Below, piece by piece: positions 48,837-52,244 of a stretch of DNA of 64,000 nt. Location: the NCBI RefSeq assembly GCF_000424445.1, contig NZ_AUJX01000014.1, positions 1 through 64,000 on the forward strand, given 5' to 3'. The notes beneath the pieces are model-generated. The model saw only the letters and a program-made list of their open reading frames with translations, did not search any database and was not told where the DNA came from. Origin of the DNA: Oribacterium sp. NK2B42. Its GTDB lineage: Bacteria > Bacillota > Clostridia > Lachnospirales > Lachnospiraceae. Each line of letters opens with the position of its first letter. The first letter of the stretch is position 1. The position numbers were made by a program, and so were the translations under genes.

Positions 48837-49002
48837 GTGAAGAAAATGCAGGGGATGTGCGGCTAGGCTTGCGAGTTGAAATAACAGTCGGCTTCACATG
48901 TACGACCCAGATGCACGTCAGTGCAGTTGGGGCGAACATGTGAAGCCGACTGTTATTTCAATCTCGTGGGCCGTCGCGCATCCCCTGCATTTTCTGTCCC
49001 AT
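48837..49002. repeat. Long cloverleaf-like palindromic repeat, copy 2 (intact)
   Basis: A 166-nt unit with the same outer arms and linkers as 5834-6118. The inner stem pairs 48876-48901 with 48936-48961 perfectly (26 bp) and caps a 34-nt loop of the same length as copy 1, again with GCAC-NNNN-GTGC. It lies between rpe and the copA promoter. Confidence 0.8.
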
Positions 49003-49018: not shown

Positions 49019-49047
49019 TTGACTAACATACCCCCGGGTGGTATATT
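49019..49047 (+). promoter_or_regulatory. copA promoter with CsoR-type operator in the spacer
   Basis: TTGACT (49019-49024) and TATATT (49042-49047) are separated by exactly 17 bp. The spacer contains ATACCCCCGGGTGGTAT (49029-49045), a GC-rich pseudo-palindrome flanked by A/T as in known CsoR operators. A half-site GGGGGTAT follows near 49073. Apo-CsoR (encoded at 51703) would block the promoter and copper would release it. Confidence 0.75.
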
Positions 49048-49109: not shown

Positions 49110-51692
49110 ATGGAACAGTATATAGTAACCGGCATGAGCTGCGCCGCATGCCAGGCAAGAGTAGAAAAAGCCGCAAAAAAAGTACCCGGTGTTAAAGAAG
49201 CCAACGTCTCACTTCTGACCAATACACTTATGGTCGACGGCACCGCCGAATCCTGTGACATCATAAAAGCAGTGGAAGAAGCCGGCTACGGAGCTTCGGT
49301 TAAAGGCGCACAGAAGACAGAGGAAAATACCTACGAAGACAGCCTCAAGGCCCAGGAAGAAGCATTAAAAGACCATGAAACACCGGTATTGAAGAATCGC
49401 TTACTCAGATCTGCGGTACTGCTCCTGACACTCATGTATCTCTCCATGGGACACAACATGGCAGGATTCCCGGTTCCCGCCTTTCTTGAAAATCCTGCGG
49501 CCAATGCATTGACTCAGATGCTCATCGCAATAGTTGTGATGTATATAAACCGGAAGTTTTTCATAGACGGCTTCAGGACGCTTTTTGACGGCTCCCCCAA
49601 TATGGATGCGCTTATCGCTTTGGGATCCACAGCATCCTTTGCATATTCACTTGTATCTCTTTATATCATGATAAATGCCATGGGCAGAGGTGAGTCGGAG
49701 ACAGTCCATCATCTGGCACATAACCTATATTTTGAGACAGCGGCAATGATACCTACGCTCATAACTGTAGGAAAGCTTCTGGAAGCAATGTCAAAAGGAC
49801 ATACAACAGATGCGCTTAAGAGCCTCATGAAGCTTTCTCCAAAAACTGCGGTTCTTTACCGCGACGGAAAGGAGACAGAAGTTCCTATTGCCGAGGTTAA
49901 AACCGGAGACCTGTTTGTTGTAAGACCCGGAGAGAATATCCCCGTGGACGGAATCATAGAAGAAGGAGAAACTTCTGTAAATGAGTCAGCCCTTACGGGA
50001 GAATCCATACCGGTTGACAAAACTTTAGGGGATATGGTTTCTGCCGGAACCATCAATCAGTCAGGATATGTAAAGTCAAGGGCTACGAGAGTCGGCAAGG
50101 ATACAACATTATCCCAGATCATAAATATGGTTTCGGATGCAGCCGCAACAAAGGCTCCTATAGCAAGAATTGCGGATAAGGTCGCTTCTGTATTTGTGCC
50201 TTTCGTCATTACCGTTTCGGTGCTTACATTATTTATCTGGCTTTTTATGGGAAAAGGCATCGAGTTCTCCATTCCGAGAGCAGTTGCGGTACTGGTTATT
50301 TCCTGCCCATGTGCTTTGGGACTTGCAACACCGGTGGCCATAATGGTAGGAAACGGCATGGGAGCCAAAAACGGTATCCTGTATAAAACCGCTGCTTCCC
50401 AGGAACAGTCAGGACGTATAGAGATAGTTGCACTTGATAAGACAGGCACCATCACAAAGGGTGAGCCGGTGGTGACGGATATAATACCTGAGGAAGGTGT
50501 CACAAAGGAAGAACTGCTGAGTCTTGCGGCTTCCCTGGAACAGAAATCGGAGCATCCTTTGGCAAAGGCTGTTATGAGCTATGCCAATGAAAACCATATA
50601 CGTATTCCTGAGGTAAGTGACTTCCGCGCATTACCGGGAAACGGCATAACTGCAAAGCTTGACTGCCATGAGCTTTACGGCGGTTCCGGGAAGTTCATGA
50701 TGGAGAAATTCGGAGCTGATGATACAATTGTCCGTAAGTCCGATGAGCTTTCTGAAATGGGAAAAACACCGCTTTTCTTTTCCGAAGATAATAAGCTTCT
50801 TGGCATGATTGCTGTCTCTGATACAATAAAAGAGGATTCCGCCAAAGCCATAAAAGAGCTTAAAGGTATGGGCATCGAGGTCTATATGATCACAGGTGAT
50901 AATGAAAAGACCGCACAGGCAATCGCTAAGCAGGCAGGAGTCTATCACGTGATTGCCGGTGTTCTTCCGGACGGTAAGGAAGCGGTTATCCGTGAGCTTC
51001 AGAAAAAGGGCAAGGTTGCAATGGTTGGTGACGGAATCAATGATGCGCCGGCATTAACAAGATCGGATCTTGGTGTAGCCATAGGAGCGGGGGCTGATGT
51101 AGCCATTGACGCTGCCGACGTGGTCATCATGAAGTCAAAGCTTACGGATGTAGCTGCAGCCATAAGACTTGGCAGGGCCACCATAAGGAATATCCATGAA
51201 AATCTTTTCTGGGCATTCTTTTATAATGTTATCTGCATACCTCTTGCGGCAGGCTTTTACTCGGCTCTTTTCGGATGGGATTTTGAAATGAATCCTATGG
51301 TGGGAGCAGCCGCCATGAGCATTTCCAGCTTCACGGTATGTATGAATGCCCTGAGACTGAATCTTTTCGATGTATTCGACGCATCAAAGGATAAAAAAAT
51401 AAAAAGGAAAACTACAGCGACCGCGGAAAAGGAAGCTGAGTTAAATACAAATGAAGAAACAAAAAAGGAGAATGAAATCATGACAGAAACAGTTAATATC
51501 AAGGGAATGATGTGCGGACATTGCGAGGCAACAGTTAAGAAGGCTCTGGAGGCCCTTGACGGAGTTACTTCAGCAACAGTTTCCCATGACAGCGGAACAG
51601 CCGTTATTGAGCTTTCAAAGGACGTTGATGAGGCAGCAATTAAAAAGGCTGTGGAGGATCACGACTTCGAGTTCGTTTCCATCGTAAAGTAA
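49110..51692 (+). CDS. copA: Copper-exporting P1B-type ATPase with C-terminal CopZ-like domain
   Basis: 860 residues. The N-terminal HMA domain has GMSCAAC (Cys11, Cys14). The membrane core carries the copper-site CPC at 399-401 (SCPCALGLATP), the phosphorylated Asp443 in DKTGT, then GDGINDAPAL. After the last helices an acidic/lysine linker (about 755-790) leads to a second HMA domain with GMMCGHC (Cys802, Cys805). This last domain begins at an ATG (51480) preceded by AAAAAAGGAG nine bases upstream, so a free 70-residue CopZ could also be made. It exports Cu(I). The operon continues with csoR. Confidence 0.95.
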   Translation: MEQYIVTGMSCAACQARVEKAAKKVPGVKEANVSLLTNTLMVDGTAESCDIIKAVEEAGYGASVKGAQKTEENTYEDSLKAQEEALKDHETPVLKNRLLRSAVLLLTLMYLSMGHNMAGFPVPAFLENPAANALTQMLIAIVVMYINRKFFIDGFRTLFDGSPNMDALIALGSTASFAYSLVSLYIMINAMGRGESETVHHLAHNLYFETAAMIPTLITVGKLLEAMSKGHTTDALKSLMKLSPKTAVLYRDGKETEVPIAEVKTGDLFVVRPGENIPVDGIIEEGETSVNESALTGESIPVDKTLGDMVSAGTINQSGYVKSRATRVGKDTTLSQIINMVSDAAATKAPIARIADKVASVFVPFVITVSVLTLFIWLFMGKGIEFSIPRAVAVLVISCPCALGLATPVAIMVGNGMGAKNGILYKTAASQEQSGRIEIVALDKTGTITKGEPVVTDIIPEEGVTKEELLSLAASLEQKSEHPLAKAVMSYANENHIRIPEVSDFRALPGNGITAKLDCHELYGGSGKFMMEKFGADDTIVRKSDELSEMGKTPLFFSEDNKLLGMIAVSDTIKEDSAKAIKELKGMGIEVYMITGDNEKTAQAIAKQAGVYHVIAGVLPDGKEAVIRELQKKGKVAMVGDGINDAPALTRSDLGVAIGAGADVAIDAADVVIMKSKLTDVAAAIRLGRATIRNIHENLFWAFFYNVICIPLAAGFYSALFGWDFEMNPMVGAAAMSISSFTVCMNALRLNLFDVFDASKDKKIKRKTTATAEKEAELNTNEETKKENEIMTETVNIKGMMCGHCEATVKKALEALDGVTSATVSHDSGTAVIELSKDVDEAAIKKAVEDHDFEFVSIVK
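51480..51692 (+). CDS. copZ: Possible internal CopZ-like copper chaperone (in frame with copA)
   Basis: In-frame translation from ATG 51480 would give a 70-residue HMA protein (GMMCGHC; ends VSIVK) identical to the C-terminal domain of CopA. The Shine-Dalgarno AAAAAAGGAG (51461-51470) has ideal 9-nt spacing, which is unlikely in the middle of a coding region by chance. Its length equals free CopZ proteins. Whether it is made is inference. Confidence 0.5.
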   Translation: MTETVNIKGMMCGHCEATVKKALEALDGVTSATVSHDSGTAVIELSKDVDEAAIKKAVEDHDFEFVSIVK

Positions 51693-51702
51693 GGTGAATG
51701 AC

Positions 51703-52008
51703 ATGCCTGCTTGTTGTGACGGAGAAAATGTAAGACATAAGAACAGAACCCCTGAGCAGATAAAGGCCCTGACAACCAGGCTTAACCGTATAGAAGGTCA
51801 GATCTGCGGGATAAAAAAGATGATCGAGGACAACAGGTATTGCCCCGATATCCTTATCCAGGTAAGTTCGGTTCAGGCATCTCTCAATTCATTTAACAAA
51901 GAACTCCTGAGTTCGCATATCAAGTCCTGTGTTGTGGAGGATATAAAAGACGGAAAAGAAGACGCGGTGGATGAGCTGTGTGAGCTTCTGAAGAAAACAA
52001 TGAAATAA
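51703..52008 (+). CDS. csoR: Copper-sensing repressor CsoR
   Basis: A 101-residue CsoR/RcnR-family repressor. The Cu(I) ligands are in the expected order: Cys47 (NRYCPDIL), His72 and Cys76 (SHIKSC). ATG 51703 is preferred over GTG 51694 because AAGGTG precedes it. N-terminal Cys4-Cys5 are additional. It binds the operator in the copA promoter in the absence of copper, closing a feedback loop with copA. Confidence 0.92.
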   Translation: MPACCDGENVRHKNRTPEQIKALTTRLNRIEGQICGIKKMIEDNRYCPDILIQVSSVQASLNSFNKELLSSHIKSCVVEDIKDGKEDAVDELCELLKKTMK

Positions 52009-52076
52009 CAATACCATATAACTTCCGGAGGTTTTATTCTTCGGAAGTATTTGTTTTTTACGGGATTTCGACGAGC

Positions 52077-52117
52077 CATAGGGGACGGTTCTCTCCGGTG
52101 AGAACCGTCCCCTATGA
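52077..52117. repeat. REP-like palindrome (copy 3, near perfect)
   Basis: ATAGGGGACGGTTCTC and GAGAACCGTCCCCTAT form a palindrome around a short CCGG-like centre. It is the best preserved of three related palindromes in the window and could also terminate csoR. Confidence 0.65.
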
Positions 52118-52244
52118 CTATTTAAATCCATTCTTTTGGTTCTTCAATTGTTCACAATGAATACACATTTGCCAGATATAATCAAAAATCATTAAAACCC
52201 ATAGTTTTATAGATATATAGACAGAGTAGCAGAAAGGACATTTT

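Follow-up and report, generated by a model that had tools for sequence, protein, structure and literature searches.

Conserved internal start site in copA of Clostridia, a gene that very likely encodes both a copper pump and a free CopZ-type chaperone

The window analyzed here is a stretch of 64,000 nucleotides of the genome of Oribacterium sp. NK2B42 (contig NZ_AUJX01000014.1, family Lachnospiraceae). It contains copA, the gene for a Cu+-exporting P1B-1 ATPase with an HMA domain at each end, and directly after it a gene for a CsoR-like repressor (Table 1). The start codon of csoR is probably ATG 51703 and not GTG 51694, and its Shine-Dalgarno (SD) sequence AAGGTG overlaps the copA stop codon (51691-51705). 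A CsoR operator-like palindrome in the spacer of the promoter-like sequence upstream of copA is a plausible operator of a copA-csoR operon, as judged by eye from the sequence. None of the five promoter-like sites listed was in the linker of copA. Two nested inverted repeats lie between the upstream gene and copA (41-nt arms, 48876-48961; 21-nt arms, 48841-48995), and csoR is followed by a near-perfect palindrome of two 23-nt arms at 52074-52119 (AGGGGACGGTTCTC..GAGAACCGTCCCCT), of which no second copy was found in the window.

Table 1. Features of the copA-csoR region, in coordinates of the window
Feature	Position	Strand	Remarks
Promoter-like TTGACT-17-TATATT	49019..49047	+	Promoter match, upstream of copA
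CsoR-operator-like palindrome ATACCCCCGGGTGGTAT	49028-49044		In promoter spacer; found by eye
copA, Cu+-exporting P1B-1 ATPase with N- and C-terminal HMA domains	49110..51692	+	860 aa
N-terminal HMA domain	49119..49289	+	CAAC motif
Linker, residues 767-790	51408..51479	+	Disordered in the predicted structure (pLDDT about 30); residue entropy among relatives is high
Internal Shine-Dalgarno AAGGAG	51465..51470	+	
Internal start codon ATG (Met791)	51480..51482	+	Nearly invariant among 39 aligned proteins
Predicted free CopZ isoform	51480..51692	+	70 aa; stop codon common to copA; ordered domain from residue 791
CopZ-type metal motif CGHC	51513..51524	+	
csoR-like repressor	51703..52008	+	PF02583; directly after copA; start picked by eye
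Terminator-like hairpin	52021..52048	+	3' of csoR

All of the tested criteria for a P1B-1 Cu+-ATPase are met by CopA. It scored above the cutoff of the Cu-ATPase model TIGR01511 (576.9 bits; cutoff 397), and the transmembrane CPC (C399, P400 and C401) and the catalytic DKTGT (D443-T447) were invariant among 39 aligned CopA proteins. The top Foldseek match of the predicted structure (mean pLDDT 77) was 4bbj, a Cu P1B-ATPase. In this predicted structure, order resumes after the disordered linker at residue 791, which is the internal Met. Residues 794-852 match Pfam HMA; when the 70-residue piece starting at the internal ATG was searched by itself, its residues 4-62 matched positions 1-60 of the 62 positions of the HMA profile (62.0 bits; cutoff 24.8). 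An earlier note, made from the sequence alone, had claimed that the last 70 residues of CopA form a complete HMA domain starting at an ATG and that a well-spaced SD sequence precedes this codon. Both claims held: the gap between AAGGAG and ATG is 9 nt, and the A of the ATG is 13 nt downstream when counted from the first G of GGAG. In the whole window, 11 sites of the form AAGGAG-N7-10-ATG were observed against 3.6 expected, and therefore a single such site is weak proof. Since the SD sequence is unremarkable in the window or in any one gene, we relied on comparison with relatives.

The 70-residue domain satisfies the criteria for CopZ, namely a length of about 70 residues, a complete HMA fold (strand-helix-strand-strand-helix-strand from residue 791 in the predicted structure), and a CxxC motif. 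Its structure matches included CopZ (6ff2, 5e-11), with ATP7B entries scoring higher. The cutoffs of the curated NCBIfam CopZ models were not met (55.8 bits with a cutoff of 85, and 55.1 bits with a cutoff of 91), and we therefore call the domain CopZ-type and do not consider it a member of the equivalog. The metal motif is CxHC in 173 of 175 C-terminal HMA domains of fused genes and in 9 of the 12 free CopZ proteins of split copA/copZ relatives, and it is CAAC in 150 of the 173 N-terminal HMA domains found. In the tree of HMA domains, a single branch (SH-aLRT 98) separates the C-terminal domains and the free CopZ proteins from the N-terminal domains, although the inner order is unsure in this tree of 113 rows and only 70 columns, for which 35 of the 175 C-terminal domains were sampled. 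The earlier note had proposed a comparison with split copA/copZ relatives; such an arrangement was found in 12 of 80 hand-picked loci of the class, and the fused domain groups with their CopZ. These data show that the C-terminal domain is derived from CopZ and is not of the N-terminal ATPase-domain kind. That it occurs as a free cytosolic protein and delivers Cu(I) is inferred.

A pump match (E<=1e-150) was found in 16 of the 17 genomes of the genus, and 15 of these matches extend to query residue 856 or further. The alignment of one locus (L019) stops at 796, yet the C-terminal domain is present; another locus (L012) lacks its 5' end. At the same threshold, the family gave a match in 375 of 396 genomes, but only the best match per genome was taken and the share of fused genes was not counted. 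Named fused loci include those of Butyrivibrio, Pseudobutyrivibrio, Frisingicoccus, and Acidaminococcus, and fused loci were also found in records labelled Pyramidobacter, Synergistaceae, and Treponema. The 80 loci from the class comprised 57 fused genes (L188 was added by hand to these), 12 split copA/copZ pairs, 10 loci with neither, and one (L196) without a readable open reading frame; because they were our own pick from the matches, they give no estimate of prevalence. The first fused set contained 124 complete open reading frames, or 118 after removal of six identical linkers, with L002, L003, L004, and one incomplete open reading frame left out. A later sample of 20 family loci consisted of four odd-looking matches and 16 loci hand-picked down the family list. 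One of its members, L218, was scored as strong despite an HMA frame cut short: the frame stops 34 residues past the motif and the remainder appears in another frame, reflecting either a real shift or a sequencing error. Two loci (L237 and L238) are outside all counts.

A signal was scored where a start codon lay 5-13 codons upstream of the metal motif and had an SD sequence of -5 kcal/mol or better. By this rule, 169 of 175 distinct linkers from many genera have an SD sequence and a start codon (148 strong, 21 medium, and 6 absent), or 166 of 175 without three doubtful medium linkers (L065, L125, and L160) that have GTG or TTG with weak SD sequences. The later family sample gave 19 strong linkers of 20, with one lacking the signal. 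Combined, the signal is present in 185 of 195 distinct linkers, doubtful in 3, and missing in 7 (L039, L048, L055, L072, L120, L128, and L231), and the ATPase-core identity between signal-bearing fused genes is as low as 42%. Both ATG and SD are retained in every one of the 14 distinct linkers from the genus, with 10 scored as strong and 4 as medium. The earlier note had said that its idea would be refuted if close relatives with the fusion had lost the site; no such case was seen within the genus, and the losses are further out. Of 118 linkers, 110 have the Met; L064 and L150 have GTG in its place, with a strong SD sequence. At least six of seven matches to AAGGAGG were found at 145 of 167 internal sites but at only 67 of the 4225 remaining in-frame ATGs in these genes; the SD enrichment across relatives is far above chance. 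As a control, we inspected second N-terminal HMA domains, all from non-fused genes: none of ten has an ATG at the equivalent place, and four have GTG or TTG there, one of them with a medium SD sequence.

The start site is under selection at the nucleotide level, as shown by the genes collectively and not gene by gene. Residue entropy in the linker is 3.0-3.7 bits, exceeding 3 at each of the 11 positions between -16 and -6, and despite this turnover the Met and a Glu at -4 are kept (Glu in 93 of the 110 linkers with Met). The codons used are skewed. For Lys at -5, AAG occurs 63 times and AAA twice, whereas the AAG:AAA ratio is 182:338 in the rest of the linker and 2654:1982 in the gene; for Glu at -4, GAG occurs 87 times and GAA six times, against GAG:GAA ratios of 59:162 and 2417:2184, respectively. 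Furthermore, the SD core is in codon phases 2, 0, and 1 at 137, 23, and 7 sites, respectively, and in the other phases the same nucleotides encode E-R, G-G, or K-G peptides. On the gene tree (FastTree, with many weak branches), at least 19 changes of SD phase and at least 17 changes of the place of the ATG are required. An SD-to-ATG distance of 12-13 nt was measured in 144 of 167 genes, comprising 117 of the 133 whose ATG is at -8 codons and 27 of the 34 whose ATG is elsewhere; ties in SD placement were resolved towards 13 nt. The MFE of the 45 nt around the internal start averages -1.1 kcal/mol, compared with -9.0 kcal/mol at other ATGs, but these control ATGs are located in the ATPase body and not in A-rich linkers. 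Against a null of synonymous codons, only 4 of 110 SD sites individually reach 0.05, whereas 103 of the 110 are stronger than the null mean (Wilcoxon 2.7e-18).

The few losses of the signal were compared with the genes nearby. A free HMA gene is present no more than 450 nt downstream in 5 of the 7 signal-less fused genes (L039, L055, L072, L120, and L231) and in none of 175 signal-bearing genes with enough flanking sequence (Fisher 1.3e-8; 1.5e-7 with the three doubtful linkers counted as losers); ten signal bearers were omitted for too short a flank. L231, the only linker of the later sample without the signal, was inspected when the pattern was already known from the first four. In L048 and L128, which also lack the signal, no adjoining free HMA gene was found. 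An eighth loss (L237, outside the counts) has the ATG without SD, and a free CopZ-like gene with an open frame of 79 aa is directly upstream. When kinship on the tree is considered, only four to five independent pairs remain; random pairings averaged 3.6 in the expected direction and none in the opposite direction (median p 0.125), and with so few pairs a sign test cannot pass 0.05. We nevertheless consider it likely, jointly with the two-product reading given below, that copA tends to lose its internal start where a separate chaperone gene adjoins it.

The free HMA proteins encoded after signal-less copA form a distinct family with GMMCGMC or GMMCGHC, HVN, and a C-terminal KKG, and, measured from the copA stop, the open frame is at +174 nt in L231, +260 in L039, +10 in L055, and -19 in L120. 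A small HMA gene of another kind (open frame of 89-160 aa with a longer N-terminal part) lies just upstream of copA in eight loci that bear the signal (L043, L051, L052, L057, L058, L084, L093, and L150), and an upstream HMA neighbour is therefore no clean predictor of signal loss. We searched 25 genomes for small HMA proteins and excluded one (G249) in which the SD sequence is absent. In 20 of the remaining 24 signal-bearing genomes, an open frame of no more than 150 aa located elsewhere gave another HMA match (E<=1e-5); no such match was found in the other four (G461, G449, G546, and G577). The idea that the internal start of copA is the only source of CopZ was dropped in view of these other frames. 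It was also dropped for the window's own genome, where a separate small HMA gene (contig C18, L131; open frame of 76 aa) precedes a gene for a cadmium-family P-type ATPase. Free CopZ from copA would thus in most cases not be the sole small HMA protein of the genome.

One possible explanation of the internal site is that it is a relic: the copA stop codon was lost, copZ was fused in frame, and the old ribosome-binding site and ATG persist without use. The clear CopZ-like nature of the C-terminal domain and the split relatives (12 of the 80 class loci) are in favor of this, and the tree (FastTree, with many weak branches) requires at least nine changes between fused and non-fused states, so that some fusions may be younger than the whole set. 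However, an unused relic should decay, and here the linker has diverged at the 11 positions from -16 to -6 to more than 3 bits of entropy, yet Met and SD remain; spacing is largely kept through core identities down to 42% and through at least 19 changes of phase and 17 of ATG place. We regard the relic explanation as very unlikely. A second possibility, to which we give as little weight, is that Lys-Glu-x-x-x-Met is retained as a feature of the protein, for example a protease site releasing the domain. The frequencies of Met (110 of 118 linkers) and of Glu at -4 (93 of those 110) would agree with such a motif, but the Lys and Glu codons are skewed to AAG GAG against the linker's own usage, the other phases yield E-R, G-G, or K-G from the same nucleotides, and GTG replaces ATG in two genes.

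The SD-like stretch might alternatively slow the elongating ribosome for folding or insertion of the pump, without any initiation. Its position in the linker, shortly after the last transmembrane helices, would suit this role. However, a start codon is retained at near-constant spacing and the SD follows an ATG that has moved; among the seven signal-less linkers, the one case of an SD core with no start codon is L039, and a free HMA gene is near it. This explanation too is hardly tenable. Finally, a frameshift of the E. coli type was rejected for the gene in the window, as its candidate product comes from the C-terminal end without a change of frame. CCCAAAG, the slippery motif of the E. coli-type copA frameshift, does not occur in the first 600 nt of this gene, and only one of 175 fused genes (L055) contains it.

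With the alternatives so weighed, the preferred reading is that copA is a conserved dual-product gene, producing a pump with a tethered CopZ and, by internal initiation, a free CopZ. We hold this to be very likely, although no translation product has been measured. The anatomy, its conservation, the nucleotide-level selection on the start site, and the CopZ ancestry of the domain are shown; the use of the internal start in vivo and separate roles of the tethered and free forms are inferred. The suggestion of the earlier note that one gene could give both a pump with a tethered domain and a free chaperone is accordingly strongly supported by comparison, the expected 7-8 kDa product being unmeasured. 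In the proposed mechanism, initiation at 49110 would give CopA with the CopZ domain on a disordered linker, and initiation at the internal ribosome-binding site and ATG 51480 would give a free 70-residue CopZ ending at the same stop codon. In the cytosol, this free form would pick up Cu(I) and pass it on to the pump. How much chaperone is made per pump would depend on the strength of the internal site, and both products would be under one promoter, probably controlled by CsoR.

A bolder reading, which we consider likely, is that a two-product copA, with every pump also tethering a CopZ, occurs in many families of Clostridia as a solution independent of the frameshift in E. coli, the start tending to be lost beside a separate chaperone gene. 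If this is true, a hidden free copper chaperone is encoded in 185 of the 195 distinct fused linkers sampled, many of them from gut and rumen bacteria, and annotation of copA as a one-product gene misses it. Two unrelated translational mechanisms would then have led convergently to a pump and a chaperone from a single gene, and copA would be a simple system for asking why cells want tethered and free copies of one domain. The combination of SD phase changes, codon skew, GTG starts, and complementary loss may also serve as a comparative recipe by which further internal starts could be identified in the absence of ribosome profiling.

Internal initiation in frame is an established type of mechanism; its use by copA/copZ is inferred, with no evidence yet from a product, and no report of it in copA was found in a partial search of the literature that left out many subscription papers. 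In two-polypeptide phage endolysins, which are frequent in phages of Gram-positive hosts, an in-frame internal start is used with a common stop codon (PMC9430671); they resemble copA in these two features and are unrelated in function. For spaO/sctQ of type III secretion, a conserved internal start was experimentally shown to produce a free C-terminal domain besides the full protein (PMC13059759). The internal SD and start, the shared stop codon, and the conservation across relatives are all found in copA, whose short isoform is so far only predicted; the SpaO/SctQ proteins are unrelated to CopA, and their short form is a structural subunit. Otherwise, copZ is typically described as a separate gene (PMC10187127), for example in E. 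hirae and B. subtilis. As in those organisms, a CopZ-type HMA domain is encoded here in a copper operon, but here copZ is in frame inside copA and has its stop codon in common. A counterpart in outcome is CopA(Z) of E. coli, in which a single copA likewise gives a pump and a chaperone of about 70 residues (PMC5009743, PMC7558416). The view of the earlier note that the present gene is a different solution from that of E. coli held: in E. coli, a -1 frameshift (PMC5009743) and an early stop yield a 70-residue chaperone from the 5' part of the gene, corresponding to the N-terminal part of the pump, whereas the CopZ-type domain described here is the C-terminal HMA domain, preceded by an internal start in the same frame.
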